NCBI GenBank assembly: GCA_020722415.1
Contig: DYKV01000002.1
Span: 15,718-59,323, forward strand
DNA: 43,606 bases
From: Anaerolinea sp.
Lineage (GTDB): Bacteria > Chloroflexota > Anaerolineae > Anaerolineales > UBA4823
Reading direction: 5' to 3'
Notes under the pieces: generated by a model
Databases searched by the model: none
Told to the model about the DNA's origin: nothing
Seen by the model: the letters and a program-made list of their open reading frames with translations, nothing else
Shown here: one piece after another, positions 1,819 to 33,050 of the stretch
Layout of the letters: each line of letters opens with the position of its first letter
Position numbering within the stretch: the first letter of the stretch is position 1
Translations under genes and position numbers: made by a program

Positions 1819-4760
1819 TGCGTACAATATCATCAGCCGCACAGGCACACATGCAGAAACAACATGGCTGTGAACCAATGTTTATTGTTGGTGTGCGGTG
1901 GTCTGCTGCCAGTCAAGAAATCTTGTATGCTGATCAAGAAGTGCCTGAAAGTGAAGGGTTACAAGTTCGTCCACAAGTTGTTGAGATTAGTGAATTTGAT
2001 GCTGCATTAAAGATTAGCGGATCAAGTGACTCTCAATCAATTAGCATTGTGCTGGATGATGTTGATGGGGCTTTGAAGTTAATTTTGGATACTGTAGATA
2101 TTCATAATGCGACATGTAATATCTATCAGCATTTCAAAGGGCTGTCACTAGCTCATAAGTTTCTTTTATTTCAAGGCAAGATTGTTACACCAGTGGAATG
2201 GGATGAAGGTGCTAGAACATTACGCTTTGATGTAATGACTCAATTAGATGAGATTGAAGTCGGTTTTTCAATGGAAGAAGGACACTTTCCGCATATACCA
2301 GAAGATGCATTAGGTAAAGTGTGGCCTCTTGTTTTTGGTTCAGTTTGTAATATGCAAGCAGTTCAGGTTCGTTCTCCTAGGCGTGGGACGCTATTACAAG
2401 GCGAGGGGATTGTTGATTTTACTTTACCGCACAGGATTTGTCAAGCACAATACATTCAGTGCCCTAGTGTGCCTGCTGGGGAAAAACAAACACTTACGCC
2501 TAATGGAAATGGTGGATATACTTTTGTAACCGCACAATCTTATGCACCTGATCGAACATGTGTTGAGAGTCGGTTTAATACTTTCTGTGAATTGACAGAC
2601 TTACTTGCACAGCAACAAGCATATGAGCATACATATCTTTTGGTTCGTGGTGGTGAGAATTTTCCACAAGGCGAAACTATTGTATTGAATGTAAATAATG
2701 CGAAATTTTGGGGTTATTTTACAAATGAAACATTTCATATTACAAGTCGTATGCATCCTGAATATGAAGAGATATGGCCTACAATAGTTGCTCATCCATG
2801 TAAAGCTATTGATGATTTTGCATATGGACCAGCACGATGGCATTATCATAGTGGATGGACTTTGAATAGTGCTGGTACAACGTGGTATGTTGATCCAGCT
2901 ACATTTCCATATGAAGATTGTAATGATGAGGGCCTAGTAAGTCAAACCAGTGATGGTGGTGCATCGGCATCACAAAAATATTTTGATGAGATGCCAACTT
3001 CCAGTTTCGTTTGGCTACCAGCAGGCACCGAAGTCTTTTTGGAAGATGAGGCTGAGATTCTGTATATTGTTAGCTTGATTCCAGGGACCGTGAATAATGT
3101 AGCAGCATACAAAACACAACCATCGGGACGCGCGTTATTGACTACGGTGCCTACTGATTACTATACTATTTATGAGACTGATTATGCTGGTTATCAAGTA
3201 GTTGAGATCGGTCTTAAGAAACCTTTGAGCCTGTATGATGCTAATTGGCACGATGATCTGTATGTGTCATTTACATCAGATGTTGGGCCTAATCCTGTGG
3301 ATATAATCATTTGGTTGCTGAATAAATATACTAATTTGTCATATGATACAACAACCTTTAATGCTGTTCGCACAAGCCTTACAAACTACCCAGCGAATTT
3401 TTGGGTGAAAGAACGGTTGAATGTTTGGCAGTTGATCCAGGATATTGCTTATCAAGCTCGTTGTGCTGTGTATGTGCGAGCAGATAAAGTGTATATTGTT
3501 TATTTGCCTTCTGAACCAACTTCTATTCGTACTTTAACTGAGAATGATATTATTGCAAAATCATTAAAAGTTGTGTTGACGCCTACTGAGGAAATTGCAA
3601 CAAAACATGTCATCACTTGGCAGGCAGGCGAAGCAGGTATTGAAGACACTGACCCCATTCAGCACAAGATTGTATTAAAGCATAACATTCAAAAGTATGG
3701 TATTCATTCAAAAGAAGTGACCTACTACACGCAAAATACATATGATACTATTTTAAAGTCGGCTACCTTTTGGATGATTCGAGACTCTAATGTTTGGAAA
3801 AAAGTAGAGTTTGAAACACCACTTTTACATCTTGATTTAGATTTATTCGACTGTGTAACAATTGATTTATCTGTATTTGGTGGCCCGATTAAGGGTATAA
3901 TTACCAATGCACAGTATCGAAGTAGCTCGAACACAATACACTTTGAATGTATGACTCCAATTAAATCAGGCGAAACAGCCGCGTATCCTTTCTTTTGGCC
4001 AGCGGCTGTTAATCCGCGATTGATGTTTCCATTGGAGACTGAGGAACAGTATTCAGGTGCAGGCTATGATTTTGAAGTGTCACCACCAGCTAACCATATC
4101 TTAGCAGGTGGTGATGTAACTGACATTGCTGATAGAATTGTGATTATGACCAGCGGTGATCCATTTCCATCTGATCTAGATGATACGTACCCTTCAATAT
4201 TGTGTCTTGATTCGAGTGCCCAGGAAATTAAAGAACCTGATCCTGTATTTGAAGCATTTAGGCGGGCAGCTAACAATAGTTATCAAGCTGCTGATGCTCT
4301 TACAAATTCAGGCGTAGGAAATGGTGGGACATCACAGAATAAAAAGAAACGGCGCACGGCGTGCGGTAGTCCAGTATATGGTGCTGGCTGTATCTATGAA
4401 GTAAACGTTATATATGTAACTCCTGATCTTGTAGCAAACCCCTGTCATTATATTGGTTGTCGTCATGGTACCGGGAACCCATGTACTGGTACAGTGGTTG
4501 GTATGTGTCATTCATTTAGAGCATTATTTGCTGCATCAATGTTTTATTACCAGAAACGAGCAGAAATTGATGCTTTGAAATCTGGCTGTGGTCATTATCA
4601 AACCGGAGTAACTGCTCCATACTCTCTTGGTTTTGCCCCTATATGGATTGTGGATGATCCAACTGATTCCCAAAGGTGCGAAAGTCTTCCAGATTTTCCG
4701 GGTGATCCCAATGCTCCGGGTGCAAATGAAGGTGAAACTTTTGAACCACATACTTTTTAA
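1818..4760 (+). CDS. Large tail-tip/host-specificity-like protein
   Basis: 980-aa ORF after small tail genes. Size, position and organisation are like central tail-tip (J-like) proteins. No decisive motif. Confidence 0.55.
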   Translation: MRTISSAAQAHMQKQHGCEPMFIVGVRWSAASQEILYADQEVPESEGLQVRPQVVEISEFDAALKISGSSDSQSISIVLDDVDGALKLILDTVDIHNATCNIYQHFKGLSLAHKFLLFQGKIVTPVEWDEGARTLRFDVMTQLDEIEVGFSMEEGHFPHIPEDALGKVWPLVFGSVCNMQAVQVRSPRRGTLLQGEGIVDFTLPHRICQAQYIQCPSVPAGEKQTLTPNGNGGYTFVTAQSYAPDRTCVESRFNTFCELTDLLAQQQAYEHTYLLVRGGENFPQGETIVLNVNNAKFWGYFTNETFHITSRMHPEYEEIWPTIVAHPCKAIDDFAYGPARWHYHSGWTLNSAGTTWYVDPATFPYEDCNDEGLVSQTSDGGASASQKYFDEMPTSSFVWLPAGTEVFLEDEAEILYIVSLIPGTVNNVAAYKTQPSGRALLTTVPTDYYTIYETDYAGYQVVEIGLKKPLSLYDANWHDDLYVSFTSDVGPNPVDIIIWLLNKYTNLSYDTTTFNAVRTSLTNYPANFWVKERLNVWQLIQDIAYQARCAVYVRADKVYIVYLPSEPTSIRTLTENDIIAKSLKVVLTPTEEIATKHVITWQAGEAGIEDTDPIQHKIVLKHNIQKYGIHSKEVTYYTQNTYDTILKSATFWMIRDSNVWKKVEFETPLLHLDLDLFDCVTIDLSVFGGPIKGIITNAQYRSSSNTIHFECMTPIKSGETAAYPFFWPAAVNPRLMFPLETEEQYSGAGYDFEVSPPANHILAGGDVTDIADRIVIMTSGDPFPSDLDDTYPSILCLDSSAQEIKEPDPVFEAFRRAANNSYQAADALTNSGVGNGGTSQNKKKRRTACGSPVYGAGCIYEVNVIYVTPDLVANPCHYIGCRHGTGNPCTGTVVGMCHSFRALFAASMFYYQKRAEIDALKSGCGHYQTGVTAPYSLGFAPIWIVDDPTDSQRCESLPDFPGDPNAPGANEGETFEPHTF

Positions 4761-5156: not shown

Positions 5157-5879
5157 ATGCAACTTCCTTGTGAAAAACGACGACGTATACTTCGACGCAA
5201 TCATGATGGCACTGAGCGAGAATTATTTAGATGTGCACATGGTATGGCGGATACTTATGGTAAGGAAGTGTCTGATGATATTTGTCAAGCATGTGTTCTT
5301 AGGATTGCAGGCTTAACTAAGTTACAATCATTATGCAACCAAGCCGCCCCATCTGCTCCAAGCTATGAGCAGCCAGTATTTGGACCTAATTTGGAAATCA
5401 TTTACAAGAAACAGGTAGGGGTTGATCCTCCTCCTTGTCCAGAAGGGTATCATCCTAGTCCAACAAATAATTGGGAGTTTATTTCTGACTGGATTGCATG
5501 TCCAAAACGGATATTCAATAACATACTTGATAAGTCAGGAGCTATTATAGTACAGGCGACATGCAGTTTGACAAATCAGCCTGTAAGTTGCTCAGATTGC
5601 TCTATGTGTAGTGCTTCATTACCACCAGACTACCCAGGTTTCCAGACACAATTAAACAATTACTGGGAGGCTATTAAGCGGTGGGTGTCGGCAGGCAGGC
5701 CAGAACGGTCTGCGGAAGAAGTCAAATTGATTCATGAAAAGCATTGCGTGAAATGTAGCTGGTATGATGCCGAGGCACAACGCTGCCGTGGCTGTGGGTG
5801 TAAAGTGCGGGCTGAAGGGATTGCAATTTTTAACAAAATCAAAATGGCTACGGAGCATTGCCCGCAACATTTATGGTAA
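5157..5879 (+). CDS. Cys-rich (zinc-ribbon-like) protein B, paralogous to A
   Basis: C-terminal CVKCSWYDAEAQRCRGCGC...NKIKMATEHCPQHLW matches the protein A C-terminus. Internal PPPCPEGY...CPKRI module. Confidence 0.7.
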   Translation: MQLPCEKRRRILRRNHDGTERELFRCAHGMADTYGKEVSDDICQACVLRIAGLTKLQSLCNQAAPSAPSYEQPVFGPNLEIIYKKQVGVDPPPCPEGYHPSPTNNWEFISDWIACPKRIFNNILDKSGAIIVQATCSLTNQPVSCSDCSMCSASLPPDYPGFQTQLNNYWEAIKRWVSAGRPERSAEEVKLIHEKHCVKCSWYDAEAQRCRGCGCKVRAEGIAIFNKIKMATEHCPQHLW

Positions 5880-19117: not shown

Positions 19118-19130
19118 ATTGTGCTAAAAT
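19103..19130 (+). promoter_or_regulatory. Sigma70-type promoter with extended -10
   Basis: TTGACT (19103-19108), 16-nt spacer, TGC-TAAAAT (19125-19130), about 27 nt before the RNA ligase ATG at 19157. Confidence 0.65.
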
Positions 19131-19156
19131 TAAGTAGGCTTCTTTATGAGGGCAAT

Positions 19157-20212
19157 ATGAGCACATTGAAAATTGAAACAGTAATGATTGAGTCAGTTGA
19201 TCCGCATCCCAATGCAGACAGGCTTGACGTTATAACTATTGGTGGTTACAAGATTTGCGACAGAAAAGGCAAGTACGCGGCTGGTGATATTGTGGCTTAT
19301 TTTCCACCAGACATTTTAATTCCATCTGATATTGCCACCCAGTTGGGGGTTGCTCAGTACCTCAAAGCAGCTATTTACCCTGGTGAATCCAAGAAATCAA
19401 ATTGCCGTGTTGGTGCTATTCGTTTGCGTGGTGTTCCGTCGTTTGGTTTCATTTTGAAAGTAAATGAGCCTGTTGGTAAAGACTTAACAGAACGATTTCA
19501 TGGCGCAAAGTTTGAACCGCCTGAGCCAATGGGGAATATTACTGGTCTGCGTGCTAAGGATGATATTCGGTTCCATACTTATACAAACATTGAGAATTGG
19601 CGTAAGTATAAAAACGCCATGCCGAATGGTCTACCAGTACGCATCACTGAAAAGATTCATGGCACTAATTCGCGCGTCGGATTGATTGCTGGTGAATATA
19701 TGTGTGGTTCACACAAGACGGCATTGAAACCAGAAGATAATACTGGTCGCCCGTCTATGTATTGGATGCCTCTTACTTCTGATATGAAATCAATGCTTTC
19801 ATGTATCAGTGAGGGACGATATAATGTCATTGTCTTTGGGGAAATTTTTGGCTCGAAGATTCAATTTATGGACTATGGTATCACAGGTTGTGGTGGATAC
19901 CGTGTATTTGATATTTCGGTGGGTGGAGAATATCTGCCGTGGGAGCAGGTAGTATATTATTGTAATCGTTTTTGTATTCCGCTTGTACCTTTGGTATATA
20001 AGGGGGCTTATTCACCTGATATCGTCGAACAGCTTGTCGATGGTCCAACTATGGTTGCTCCACTCGATCAGATTCGTTGCGACTTCAAGGGGCGCGAAGG
20101 TGTAGTCATAACACCTTTGAAAGAAACTTATTCACTAGAATTAAATGGACGACTCATTCTAAAAGCTGTCAGTGTTGATTATTTGGCATCACGGCGGAGT
20201 GATAGTCATTAA
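19157..20212 (+). CDS. RNA ligase with N-terminal OB-like domain (Rnl5/DRB0094-like)
   Basis: Nucleotidyl motif TEKIHGTNSRVG, VIVFGEIFGSKIQ, GREGVVITP. N-terminal VDPHPNADRLDVITIGG resembles an EMAP/OB-type module. ATG at 19157 preferred. Confidence 0.85.
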   Translation: MSTLKIETVMIESVDPHPNADRLDVITIGGYKICDRKGKYAAGDIVAYFPPDILIPSDIATQLGVAQYLKAAIYPGESKKSNCRVGAIRLRGVPSFGFILKVNEPVGKDLTERFHGAKFEPPEPMGNITGLRAKDDIRFHTYTNIENWRKYKNAMPNGLPVRITEKIHGTNSRVGLIAGEYMCGSHKTALKPEDNTGRPSMYWMPLTSDMKSMLSCISEGRYNVIVFGEIFGSKIQFMDYGITGCGGYRVFDISVGGEYLPWEQVVYYCNRFCIPLVPLVYKGAYSPDIVEQLVDGPTMVAPLDQIRCDFKGREGVVITPLKETYSLELNGRLILKAVSVDYLASRRSDSH

Positions 20213-20253: not shown

Positions 20254-21546
20254 GTGAAACTGACCACAGAAAATGTCCGATGTATCAAGAAATTATTAAA
20301 TAAGGGACTTTCGCAGCCAAAGATTGCTAAGCGTTTTGGTGTGAGCCGATCATTGATTTCGGATATTGCGACTGGGCGCGCGTGGACAAAAGTCTCAGGC
20401 AAGCGATCAATTAAGCGCCCTGGTGGGCAGCCAAAGGCAATGGATTATGATCCAACTGATGAGCGTATTTTGACTCTTGAAGCAGAAATTGCTATGCTGC
20501 AAGATGAACGTGCAGCAATGAAGCGGCAGCTTAAAGCCATGACAAAAACACATGGCTTATTTAGGGCAATGGTTGATGAAATGGAAGCGATTGTGACACC
20601 AATGAAGGCGTTACCCAGGGTGATTCCTGTTGAGCCTGTAAAAAATGCCAAGTGTATTGAAGAACATTTGGTAATGCATCTGAGTGATGGACATCATGAT
20701 CAAATTGTTCACCCCTCCGAGTGTGGTGGGCTTGAGTGCCATAATTTCTTGATTAGTATGCGACGGGCCGAACAGTATGTTGACACTGTCTTGAAATGGA
20801 CACAACAGACTCTTGCACCGCAATTCAAGTTTCCTGAGTTGACAGTACTTGCATATGGTGACCATACAAGTGGCGAAATTCACGGGCATACTGAACGGTC
20901 ATATTTTAGGAATCAGTTTAAGAATTGTTTTGCAATCGGTCAGCTCCATGCTTTGATGTATCGTGATTTAGCTCCGTACTTTGAAACTGTGAATATTGTA
21001 TATGTTCCAGGTAATCATGGACGGCGCAGCATCAAGAAAAATTATTATGGTGCTCATGATAACTGGGACTATTTGATTGCTGAAACGGCCCGGCTTCATT
21101 GTCGAGATATAAAAAATATCAATTTCGTGATTCCAGATTCATTCTCCATTAACTTAGACATTAATGGTGTTGGATTCTGCATCTTTCATGGTGACGATAT
21201 TCGCTCAAATATGGGTATTCCGTTCTATGGTCTTGAGCGACGTCAACGTCGAATCATGGCATTGAATCAGGCATTTGGTACACATATCCGGTACTATTGC
21301 TGTGGGCACTTTCATCGACCTAGTTCATTAACTGATCTTGATGGCGAGATTATTGTCAATGGTACTTGGGTCGCTACGGATGCGTTTGCATATAATGCGT
21401 TTGGTGGTTACACTGTACCTTCTCAATTATTACATGGTGTGAATCCTAAGTATGGTATCACTTGGAGGCTTCCAGTGAATCTGCGAACCGATGATGAGGC
21501 TCGTGGTCCTCAACGTTACAAAATTGATATTAGGAACGACAAATGA
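20254..21546 (+). CDS. HTH-fused calcineurin-like metallophosphoesterase
   Basis: N-terminal HTH (GLSQPKIAKRFGVSRSLISDIATGRAW) plus phosphoesterase motifs LSDGHHD, AYGDHTSG, VPGNHGRR, FHGDD, CGHFHRP. GTG start in the shared leader. Confidence 0.85.
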   Translation: MKLTTENVRCIKKLLNKGLSQPKIAKRFGVSRSLISDIATGRAWTKVSGKRSIKRPGGQPKAMDYDPTDERILTLEAEIAMLQDERAAMKRQLKAMTKTHGLFRAMVDEMEAIVTPMKALPRVIPVEPVKNAKCIEEHLVMHLSDGHHDQIVHPSECGGLECHNFLISMRRAEQYVDTVLKWTQQTLAPQFKFPELTVLAYGDHTSGEIHGHTERSYFRNQFKNCFAIGQLHALMYRDLAPYFETVNIVYVPGNHGRRSIKKNYYGAHDNWDYLIAETARLHCRDIKNINFVIPDSFSINLDINGVGFCIFHGDDIRSNMGIPFYGLERRQRRIMALNQAFGTHIRYYCCGHFHRPSSLTDLDGEIIVNGTWVATDAFAYNAFGGYTVPSQLLHGVNPKYGITWRLPVNLRTDDEARGPQRYKIDIRNDK

Positions 21547-22103
21547 AAACATTCTTTACTGCTGACTTGCATTTTGATGGCCCGAAATTTTACGGAAATC
21601 CTCGGTGTACTCGCCCGTTCACTGGCGAGAAATGGAATGCCTTGATGATTGATACGATCAACCGTCTGGTTGACTATGAAGATCGTCTTGTTATTCTTGG
21701 CGACTTTGCTAGCTATAGACCTGGCTACTGGCGTTTGCAGATTCGATGCAAGAATGTAATTTTGATTTTAGGCAACCACGACAATGAAGTTAAATGTCGA
21801 AATGTTTTTGGTGGCAACCTTCGAGTAACTTGTAACATGAAGATATTAGGTCATGTACATGTTTTCTTGTCACACTATCCACACGCATTTTGGAATGGAA
21901 GTCACAAAGGATGGTTGCATTTATATGGGCACTGTCACAACCAACGTGAGGCCGTGCTCGATGCCCTGTGGCCTGAGCGTCGAGCAATGGATGTTTCACC
22001 AGATACAGCGTATGCAAAGTTTGGTGAATGGCGCCCATTTTCCGATACCGAAGTTTTTGAGTTAATTGGAAAACGAGCCGGGCATGATTTGGTTGAATTT
22101 TAG
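21543..22103 (+). CDS. Calcineurin-like metallophosphoesterase
   Basis: TADLHFDG, LGDFAS, LGNHDN, LSHYPH, YGHCHN. Confidence 0.88.
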   Translation: MKTFFTADLHFDGPKFYGNPRCTRPFTGEKWNALMIDTINRLVDYEDRLVILGDFASYRPGYWRLQIRCKNVILILGNHDNEVKCRNVFGGNLRVTCNMKILGHVHVFLSHYPHAFWNGSHKGWLHLYGHCHNQREAVLDALWPERRAMDVSPDTAYAKFGEWRPFSDTEVFELIGKRAGHDLVEF

Positions 22104-22144: not shown

Positions 22145-22840
22145 ATGCCAATTCGTCATAGTAAACGTGCTAAGCAACGTGAAGCAGAACATGAAAAACA
22201 GTCACAAGTTTCATTCGAATTTCTGACAGAAAGGCAGAAAACAGCATGGGAAGAATACAAGCAACATGATGTACTCTTCCTATCTGGTCCAGCTGGCACA
22301 GGTAAAACATTTTTGGCAATGGCTTTTGCTATTTATGATATTCTTACTAAGCAACGTAAGCGTATCATTTTAACTCGTCCGATTGTTGAAGCTGGTGAGT
22401 CTCTAGGTTATCTCCCTGGGGATTTCACCATGAAAGTTAATCCCTACATGATCCCCTTGTATGATTGTTATCATACGATTTGTCCTGGTCAGACTATGAA
22501 GAATAAGATCATTGATAATGCTTTTGAAGTTGCACCGATTGCTTATATGCGAGGTCGTACCTTCCATGAGTCAGTATGTATTTTTGATGAAGCTCAAAAT
22601 GCTACGCTTTCACAATTGAAGTTATTTCTTTCGCGATTTGGACAAAACTCAAAAATCATTGTTACTGGCGACCCGAATCAATCAGACTTGCGGGACAAGA
22701 GCGGTTTGAATACCGTGCTTGACCGTTTGCATGGTTTGTCGGGTGTCAGCATTGTTCGATTTACCAAAGACGATATTGTTCGTCATCCGCTAGTAGGGGA
22801 AATTTTAGCACGGTTAGAAAGATGTATGCCAATGGCATGA
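22145..22840 (+). CDS. phoH: PhoH-like ATPase
   Basis: FLSGPAGTGKTFLAMA, ILTRPIVEAGESLGYLPG, FDEAQNATLSQLKLFLSR, IIVTGDPNQSDL. Confidence 0.92.
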   Translation: MPIRHSKRAKQREAEHEKQSQVSFEFLTERQKTAWEEYKQHDVLFLSGPAGTGKTFLAMAFAIYDILTKQRKRIILTRPIVEAGESLGYLPGDFTMKVNPYMIPLYDCYHTICPGQTMKNKIIDNAFEVAPIAYMRGRTFHESVCIFDEAQNATLSQLKLFLSRFGQNSKIIVTGDPNQSDLRDKSGLNTVLDRLHGLSGVSIVRFTKDDIVRHPLVGEILARLERCMPMA

Positions 22841-22874: not shown

Positions 22875-22947
22875 GCTGCCGTAGCTCAATTGGTAGAGCG
22901 GCTGACCTGTAATCAGCAGGTTGAGGGTTCAAGCCCTTCCGGCAGCT
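22875..22947 (+). tRNA. tRNA-Thr (anticodon TGT), anticodon loop CCTGTAA (C33)
   Basis: GCTGCCG/CGGCAGC acceptor, GCTC/GAGC D stem, GCTGA/TCAGC anticodon stem, GAGGG/CCTTC T stem with TTCAAGC loop. CCA not encoded. Confidence 0.93.
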
Positions 22948-22961
22948 TTATAATAAAAATG

Positions 22962-23034
22962 GCTGATGTAGCTCAACTGGTGGAGCAGCTGATGTGTAAT
23001 CAGCAGGTTGAGAGTTCAAGTCTCTCCATCAGCC
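22962..23034 (+). tRNA. tRNA-Thr-like (anticodon TGT), anticodon loop TGTGTAA (G33)
   Basis: GCTGATG/CATCAGC acceptor, GCTC/GAGC D stem, GCTGA/TCAGC anticodon stem, GAGAG/CTCTC T stem with TTCAAGT loop. CCA not encoded. Confidence 0.9.
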
Positions 23035-23065: not shown

Positions 23066-23947
23066 TTGAAAAGAATGGTACCGAAGATCACTGATTTTTT
23101 GCTATCACGTGCTGAACAGGTTGCTGAAGACGCAGTGAAAATGCAACTCGATGTTAAGGTTTATCAGGAAATCCGAGCACATCTTCCACGTTTATTTCCG
23201 GCTCCTGATAAAATCATTCTGTGGCCAACAGACGCCTGCGAGGTGCTGTTTGTTTACATGATTAAACCCAAAGAGCAAGCTGAAGCCTTACGAATGGCAA
23301 TTAGTTTAGCGTTTGCAATTAGCAAGGATGGTTGGTATGGTGAATTACAAAAGGAAGACAATACATTTTCTGTCTTTAGTGCCTGCACGATTAATAATCA
23401 CTGTGTATTAATAAAGTTGATCGGGGCAAATTTTGAGGATTATGAATTCAATGTGGAGCAAGATACAGGCACGCGACTTATTGGTCCTGTGCAATGTTCT
23501 AAGTTTGTACCATTCGATATTATCCGGCCTGATGCTTCGGACGATATTCTTATTGAGCATAGTAAGAAAGTTGATTTGACAGCATATTACGCTAAGTATA
23601 AGGCGAAGATTCTTAGTCTTGTTGGTCATAGAATACCGGCTCAGACGCCAGTTCCTGATGATGTTGTTGTAGGAATTGGTACGACGTTTGATTTGGACTT
23701 AGTGTATAATGAGGATAAGAATGGAAGCCTTCGAAAAAGGCTTGATAAGCATCTCGGCTGTCAGGATGGTTGGACATTGCTTGTGCATAAAGCAACTTTT
23801 ACCCAGACTTTGTATAAGATTATTGATGTGGCGTGTGACTCTTGGACTATTAAAGTGCGGGTATCAATTTTGAAGCCGTATCTTGAGGTTGAAAATTTAT
23901 CACTCACCAGTGACAAGCAAGATTATTTATTGTATCAATATAAATGA
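23066..23947 (+). CDS. Hypothetical protein
   Basis: 293-aa ORF with compact spacing to its neighbours. No recognisable motif. Confidence 0.65.
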   Translation: MKRMVPKITDFLLSRAEQVAEDAVKMQLDVKVYQEIRAHLPRLFPAPDKIILWPTDACEVLFVYMIKPKEQAEALRMAISLAFAISKDGWYGELQKEDNTFSVFSACTINNHCVLIKLIGANFEDYEFNVEQDTGTRLIGPVQCSKFVPFDIIRPDASDDILIEHSKKVDLTAYYAKYKAKILSLVGHRIPAQTPVPDDVVVGIGTTFDLDLVYNEDKNGSLRKRLDKHLGCQDGWTLLVHKATFTQTLYKIIDVACDSWTIKVRVSILKPYLEVENLSLTSDKQDYLLYQYK

Positions 23948-31534: not shown

Positions 31535-31783
31535 ATGCTTTCTGACACAGTATTAAAACGTTTGCTTGGAGCAGATTTGACAGGCGACAAACTGACGGGA
31601 TTGTTTACTGACATGGCTAATATGATGATTTTATCCGATGCAGCGCAAGCCTCGCTGGTTTTAGGCTATGTCGATGATCTTCGTGAATTACAACCTGGAG
31701 ACTTCATTCCTACAATCACAATGTCCCTTACACGTTATACCGAGGTCAAGGATATTGCGACAAATGCTTCAGACCATCATTGA
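31535..31783 (+). CDS. Small hypothetical protein preceding the BCS1-like gene
   Basis: 82-aa ORF with a 20-nt overlap with the next gene. Confidence 0.5.
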   Translation: MLSDTVLKRLLGADLTGDKLTGLFTDMANMMILSDAAQASLVLGYVDDLRELQPGDFIPTITMSLTRYTEVKDIATNASDHH

Positions 31784-33050
31784 TTTTATTAGTTCACAGT
31801 TAGCAAATAATCAATTCCTCAGTGGCGGTGCTGTGCTTGCCGCTGGTGGCATCTTGTTGGCATATTTGCGCAGTGTGCCATCGTGGATTTATAATTGGCT
31901 GAAACGCCAAATAATGACTGAAATTGATGTACCTGATCGTGATGAGTCCTTTAAGTGGTTATGTGTTTGGTTATCCCAGCATCCATATCGCAAGCGTTGC
32001 CGTCGGTGGACGATTCAAACTCGTCGCAATCGTAATAGTGAATATGAAAATGATAGGCATGACTACAAGAAACCACAAATCATTTTATCACCTGCACCAG
32101 GAGTTCATTTTCTATGGTACAAAAATCGGTTAATGATTTTGCAACGTGACCGCAAGGATGGTGGTCAAGATAAAAATGTTGCTTCAGTATTGGGATATCG
32201 TGAAACCTTCAACATTCGATTGTTCAGCCGCAATACTCAATTGATTATTGATTTGATTGAAGAAGCTAGAAGAACAGCAAATCCAGTAGGAGAAGAACGT
32301 ATTAGAATCTTATGTCCGGGTTACAATAATTGGTATGAGGCTACACGACGTATGATTCGTCCATTGGATTCTGTGATTCTAGATGGCAATTTATCTAACC
32401 TGTTATTGACAGATGTTAAGCAATTTCTTGACTCCGAAAAATGGTATAATAAACATGGTATCCCATATCGACGTGGATATTTATTACATGGTCCACCTGG
32501 TAATGGAAAGTCTTCTATTGTCACGGCTATTGCTTCCCATTTAAAACTCGATATTTGTGTATTAAATCTCAATGCATTTGGACTATCAGATGAAAAACTC
32601 ATGGAGCTAATGACATCAGTTCCTTTGAATAGTATCATCCTCATTGAGGATATTGATTGTGTTTTTTGTGACCGAAAGAGGGTTGATGAGAACGAAAATA
32701 TTACTTTTTCAGGACTACTTAATGCTATAGATGGAGTTATATCGAGTGAGGGTCGAATCCTATTTATGACAACCAATCACAAAGAAACTCTTGACCCTGC
32801 TCTAATTCGTCCTGGCAGAATTGATTTAGATTTATTCATTGGTAATGCCTCAAAGGATCAAGCACGTCGTTTATTCTTGCAATTCTTTCCTCAGGCAGAA
32901 ACCTTAGCAGACAACTTTGCTCAAAAAGTTGCCTCTAGAAATCTTAGCATGGCTCAATTGCAAGGTCATTTACTTAAATTTCGAGATAACCCAGTTGATG
33001 CTTCTACTCAACCGGTGCAAGAACTTGTCAACCAGGAGATTCCATGCTAG
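31764..33050 (+). CDS. BCS1-like AAA+ ATPase with N-terminal membrane segment
   Basis: N-terminal hydrophobic segment, BCS1_N-like region (YNNWYEATRRMIRPLDSVILD), Walker A RGYLLHGPPGNGKSS, Walker B SIILIEDIDC, TFSGLLNAIDGV, FMTTNHKETLDPALIRPGRID. Confidence 0.88.
   Translation: MLQTIIDFISSQLANNQFLSGGAVLAAGGILLAYLRSVPSWIYNWLKRQIMTEIDVPDRDESFKWLCVWLSQHPYRKRCRRWTIQTRRNRNSEYENDRHDYKKPQIILSPAPGVHFLWYKNRLMILQRDRKDGGQDKNVASVLGYRETFNIRLFSRNTQLIIDLIEEARRTANPVGEERIRILCPGYNNWYEATRRMIRPLDSVILDGNLSNLLLTDVKQFLDSEKWYNKHGIPYRRGYLLHGPPGNGKSSIVTAIASHLKLDICVLNLNAFGLSDEKLMELMTSVPLNSIILIEDIDCVFCDRKRVDENENITFSGLLNAIDGVISSEGRILFMTTNHKETLDPALIRPGRIDLDLFIGNASKDQARRLFLQFFPQAETLADNFAQKVASRNLSMAQLQGHLLKFRDNPVDASTQPVQELVNQEIPC

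Follow-up and report, generated by a model that had tools for sequence, protein, structure and literature searches.

By standard teaching, uridine 33 (U33) is indispensable for the U-turn of the anticodon loop, and a tRNA gene without it raises the question of whether its product can work in translation. We address this question for two adjacent tRNA-Thr(UGU) genes, both lacking U33, in a stretch of 43,606 nucleotides (the window) of contig DYKV01000002.1, which is binned with an Anaerolinea sp. metagenome-assembled genome (MAG; GenBank assembly GCA_020722415.1). Judging by its gene content, the contig belongs to an uncultured tailed phage. Our best reading, held with moderate confidence, is that the two genes encode working phage tRNAs that decode ACA codons and in which the loss of U33 is tolerated.

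Structure and ancestry of the tRNA pair

ARAGORN predicts exactly two tRNAs in the window, each tRNA-Thr(TGT) and each on the forward strand, with copy 1 at 22875..22947 and copy 2 at 22962..23034. The anticodon loop is CCUGUAA in copy 1 (C32 C33 U34 G35 U36 A37 A38) and UGUGUAA in copy 2 (U32 G33 U34 G35 U36 A37 A38). In addition, copy 2 has G21 in place of A21, position 73 is U in copy 1 and C in copy 2, and CCA is not encoded in either gene. U33 is a near-universal feature, yet both genes pass the gathering score of 29 of the Rfam tRNA model (RF00005) without it, at 66.7 bits for copy 1 and 60.6 bits for copy 2 and with zero mismatched stem pairs; all 21 of the 21 stem pairs are standard in each. 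An initial annotation of the window had described two tRNA-Thr(UGU) cloverleaves with these stems, loops and anticodons, with G1-C72 and C2-G71 and with C33 and G33 in place of U33. ARAGORN, the sequence itself and the covariance model that had been suggested as a check, which returns both genes as complete cloverleaves, bear this description out. The threonine features G1-C72, C2-G71 and, in the anticodon, G35 and U36 are present in the pair, and a threonine identity is plausible for both tRNAs.

The copies differ from each other at 14 of 73 positions. Within the stems, three pairs are altered on both sides and one G-U pair becomes G-C, with no pair broken; the remaining seven differences are at unpaired positions, positions 32 and 33 among them. 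Intact helices combined with compensatory changes between the copies indicate structural constraint, and neither copy is decaying, as the initial annotation had argued. The two U33-less phage tRNAs are real and unusual. The C33 copy is also predicted to form a competing hairpin at window positions 22904-22922, in which ACCUG pairs with CAGGU of the variable loop; as unmodified RNA, the fold with this hairpin is predicted to exceed the cloverleaf in stability by 6 kcal/mol.

Comparison with homologous phage tRNAs, also proposed in the initial annotation, bears on where the pair came from. In a search that left positions 32 and 33 free, the seven nearest viral tRNAs all have the loop TTTGTAA, that is, U33. 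On the strength of these relatives, the ancestor of both copies probably had U33, and both copies probably descend from it and lost that base. The tRNA-Thr(UGU) gene of the MAG has a canonical loop, CTTGTAA, with U33, and its anticodon stem is different from that of the phage pair; the pair is thus not a recent copy of the MAG gene. When 37 other genomes from the family of the MAG were searched for close relatives of the tRNA region, they gave only short tRNA-like matches.

U33-less tRNA-Thr(UGU) in bacteria and other viruses

That C33 and G33 forms of tRNA-Thr(UGU) function in translation is best supported by bacterial genomes in which such a gene appears to be the only one of its kind. Among GTDB genomes, 22 stretches match a U33-less Thr(UGU) pattern with the loops CCTGTAA, TCTGTAA, TGTGTAA and, once, TATGTAA; two of them (L202 and L203) are not complete tRNAs with the matched loop. 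Several of these cellular genes are found inside ordinary tRNA operons, for example, in Lachnospiraceae in the order Phe-Met-Tyr-Thr-Val-Asp and in Staphylococcus auricularis DSM 20609, where a C33 gene (L208:675-750) is part of the operon Val-Thr-Lys-Gly-Leu-Arg-Pro-Ala. Further C33 or G33 genes are present in Mycoplasmataceae and Ureaplasma MAGs (L198, L200, L214, and L217) and in Lachnospiraceae and Butyrivibrio MAGs (L206, L209, L213, L215, and L216). We screened for additional Thr(UGU) genes by using a pattern blind to position 33 and BLAST searches with a U33 tRNA. In most genomes checked, the U33-less gene was the only Thr(UGU) gene detected; no second one was found in the draft assemblies of S. 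auricularis, the Ureaplasma and Mycoplasmataceae MAGs, an Aerophobetes MAG, and several Lachnospiraceae MAGs. Nearly all of the other BLAST matches were to Lys, Arg, Thr(CGU), or neighboring genes, and a U33 copy coexists with the U33-less one in three genomes (G086, G099, and G100). As C33 or G33 genes are the only detected ACA decoder in several bacterial assemblies, loss of U33 would appear to be tolerated in tRNA-Thr(UGU). One of the incomplete matches, at L203:4458-4486, is the 3' half of a tRNA-Thr and carries CCTGTAA; an intact U33 tRNA-Thr is present in the same locus, and this is the pattern expected of the attachment site of an integrated element.

Loss of U33 is also not private to this phage. 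A pattern search allowing any base but T at position 33 identified tRNA-Thr(UGU) genes on 25 viral contigs, all of them C33 (21 with CCTGTAA and 4 with TCTGTAA), and the same pattern with T33 has at least 120 viral matches. Across two uncultured viral samples, whose loci were fetched without selection on position 33 of the tRNAs counted, 31 of 912 tRNAs (3.4%) lack U33 and mostly have C33. The viral C33 tRNAs are spread over Glu, Ala, Val, Cys, Ile, Ser, Pro, and others. By eye, most of the A33 and G33 cases among those other viral tRNAs look like doubtful predictions, and Thr(UGU) was the only type in which we saw well-formed G33 tRNAs. Neighboring tRNAs lack U33 somewhat more often beside a C33 tRNA-Thr than beside a U33 tRNA-Thr (7/186 versus 2/350; p = 0.01). 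We rejected a trait shared within one phage as distinctive, given that 29 of 562 tRNAs in a generic viral sample lack U33. Among the papers searched, none gave an account of C33 in phage tRNAs.

A broader proposal, which we make tentatively, is that elongator tRNA-Thr(UGU) can naturally do without U33. C33 and G33 forms would have emerged repeatedly among phages and bacteria, in the latter as the sole ACA decoder, and they may be isoacceptors that are independent of N6-threonylcarbamoyladenosine at position 37 (t6A37) or resistant to nucleases; the phage has both forms. Intact U33-less Thr(UGU) genes provide a natural system for testing the need for U33 in an elongator tRNA and for asking whether its loss is coupled to loss of t6A37 or alters sensitivity to anticodon nucleases.

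Probable codon supplementation and competing explanations

The codon ACA occurs 23.3 times per 1,000 codons in the phage versus 12.5 on host contigs, which makes it the fifth most enriched codon, and it accounts for 38% versus 23% of threonine codons (chi-square, 50.6; p about 1e-12). We found no tRNA beyond the Thr(UGU) pair on the contig. Since the only two tRNAs both serve ACA and this codon is enriched, codon supplementation is the simplest account: the pair would supplement the reading of ACA and probably of other ACN codons too. A phage tRNA-Thr(UGU) with U33 may have been duplicated and diverged, after which both copies would have lost U33 with every helix kept, the base being dispensable enough in this tRNA to be lost. 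The tRNAs would then be charged by the host ThrRS, receive CCA from the host, and be used by the ribosome, with the MAG as the presumed host. The pair resembles known codon-supplementing phage tRNAs in being intact, in residing on a tailed phage, and in having an anticodon that fits a codon commoner in the phage, but it differs from them in lacking U33 and in that the whole set consists of two isoacceptors with one anticodon.

Other natural tRNAs have U33 replaced, namely tRNA-Ser with G33 and bacterial tRNA-ProX with A33 (PMC11415595), and G21 is common to tRNA-ProX and copy 2. Unlike the mistranslating tRNA-Ser and tRNA-ProX, however, the phage tRNAs have no dual identity, as acceptor stem and anticodon agree on threonine. 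Whereas tRNA-ProX combines a proline acceptor, a non-proline anticodon, and A33, the pair has G1-C72 and C2-G71, a threonine anticodon, and C33 or G33.

Several points weigh against working ACA decoders. Mutations of U33 are reported to degrade translation or decoding (PMC3664417; PMC11415595), and a mistranslating tRNA-Ser seems to be held back in decoding by its G33 (PMC11415595), so the phage pair could be poor decoders. At 14 GenBank phage loci, U33 is present in every one of 118 standard-anticodon tRNAs (p = 0.04 versus the uncultured set), so losing the base is not the rule, and a search for a C33 tRNA-Thr in GenBank phages found none at these 14 loci. The sole-gene evidence from bacteria is drawn from draft assemblies, in which "sole" means sole detected. 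Finally, the host is assigned by binning alone, and the host codon sample covers about 60 kb.

Nuclease evasion is possible, if unlikely. Here, a host anticodon nuclease or a Cas13-like enzyme that needs U33 would cut the host tRNA-Thr(UGU), and the phage pair would replace the cut tRNA. The same base is altered in both copies by different substitutions, and the MAG tRNA-Thr(UGU), from a host assigned by binning only, retains U33 in a loop unlike those of the pair. A precedent exists in phage tRNAs whose altered anticodon loops are predicted to prevent cutting by VapC (van den Berg et al. 2023, PMC10264068). As in those tRNAs, the loops differ from that of the MAG tRNA with the same anticodon; in contrast to them, no Thr(UGU)-targeting nuclease was identified here, and the change sits at position 33. 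Query searches of the MAG detected no PrrC/RloC-type ATPase (the VapC, Cas13, and Toprim classes were not searched for). The spread of viral U33 loss over many anticodons does not point to one nuclease, and viral C33 is not enriched for U34, U36, A37, or C32; a tie to U34 anticodons hinted at in the first sample was gone in the larger one (13/31 versus 518/1079; p = 0.59). The presence of U33-less Thr(UGU) genes in ordinary bacterial tRNA operons and the lack of any association with RNA ligase genes, described below, also argue against evasion. Nothing in our analysis favors evasion over tolerance.

It is unlikely that the pair merely reflects relaxed constraint, under which nonessential phage tRNAs drift at position 33, slightly impaired and with no special role. 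A background of approximately 3.4% U33-less tRNAs in uncultured viral contigs, over many anticodons, fits such drift. However, every helix in the pair is kept, three pairs have changed on both sides, neither gene shows any other sign of decay, and ACA is enriched in the phage.

We consider it improbable that these are modification-independent decoders, in which the absence of U33-A37 pairing prevents collapse of the loop and makes t6A37 unneeded, or in which slow decoding is itself useful. In folding predictions, U33-A37 pairing reduces the loop of a U33 relative to 3 bases, whereas a 5-base loop remains in the G33 copy, so a U33-less tRNA might need t6A37 less. Against a general rule of this kind, a tie of viral C33 to t6A-class anticodons (7/31 versus 360/1079) or to A37 was rejected, and the C33 copy has the competing predicted fold described above. 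Assembly or sequencing error is highly improbable even for a metagenome assembly: the substitutions differ between two neighboring genes that can be told apart, and the same loops recur in unrelated assemblies, the C33 form being present also in a draft genome of the named strain S. auricularis DSM 20609.

RNA ligase module and gene neighborhood

The initial annotation had placed the tRNAs beside an RNA ligase, phosphoesterase, and PhoH cluster and had suggested a combined cassette that repairs and replaces cleaved tRNAs. A gene for a PhoH-like ATPase (22145..22840, forward strand, like the three genes that follow; Pfam PhoH, 2.8e-69) does adjoin the pair, ending 34 bases upstream of copy 1. 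The RNA ligase gene (19121..20212) is only loosely associated, as it lies upstream with its end 2.66 kb and three genes away from the tRNAs. Between them, in addition to phoH, are genes for a protein with a helix-turn-helix domain and a phosphoesterase/exonuclease (20254..21546; phrog_284; 65-70% identical in kin phages L008-L010) and for a calcineurin-type phosphoesterase (21543..22103; PF00149, phrog_547). With an OB fold at its N terminus (PHA02142) and a match to PF09414 (5.6e-21), the ligase is Naegleria Rnl/Rnl5-like; its solved relatives in PDB are the Naegleria RNA ligase and T4 Rnl2 and not Rnl1.

An RNA ligase gene within 3 kb of phage tRNAs is the likeness to the T4-type tRNA repair system, in which Pnkp and Rnl1 counter PrrC. 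The differences are the Naegleria/Rnl5-like ligase, the absence of a detected PrrC-type target system, and the absence of a detected polynucleotide kinase, for which the contig (C307) gave no PF13671 match in a search that unrelated kinase families could escape. We rejected an association of RNA ligase with C33 tRNA-Thr, as PF09414 ligases are no more frequent in viral records with a C33 tRNA-Thr (4/24, or 3.2 per Mb) than in those with a U33 tRNA-Thr (6/24, or 3.0 per Mb; Fisher p = 0.72). A link between the ligase and the tRNAs is therefore not supported, and the repair-and-replace cassette finds neither linkage nor enrichment in its favor.

The kin phages are informative about this arrangement. 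The block of methyltransferase, glycosyltransferase, RNA ligase, and phosphoesterase genes is kept in L008-L010 at 43-70% identity with no tRNA beside it, and the tRNAs beside phoH are Met in L010 and a U33 tRNA-Thr with odd tRNA-like genes in L012. The tRNA content next to phoH thus varies, and the RNA ligase belongs to a separate conserved module. One of the tRNA-like genes (L012:5424-5527; 36.5 bits), near the U33 tRNA-Thr and phoH, has a 38-base stretch replacing the anticodon loop, and another tRNA-like element (L012, ~5658-5730) has by eye a degenerate T arm and a GGU anticodon. In the same phage, a helicase gene (L012:8400-9410) seems, likewise by eye, to be split by an in-frame insertion that resembles an intein.

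The contig from which the window is taken is 63,495 bp long and is one of 652 in the MAG. A search of it for exact terminal repeats of 16-200 bases gave none, so the contig may be incomplete. Its tailed-phage genes encode terminase, portal, scaffold, major head protein, and tape measure, and further genes encode primase, helicase, ribonucleotide reductase, DNA polymerase A, PhoH, and ThyX. The open reading frame directly downstream of the tRNAs (window 23066-23947) matches nothing in Pfam, PHROGs, or PADLOC, and a search of viral contigs for relatives of it (23081-23947) likewise gave none. Farther along, the product of an AAA ATPase gene (window 31668-33050) weakly matches the defense protein IetA (1.7e-14) and strongly matches phrog_7485, a family of unknown function. 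The right end of the contig carries glutamine amidotransferase-like and amidoligase genes (L047:1311-2138 and 3164-4138).
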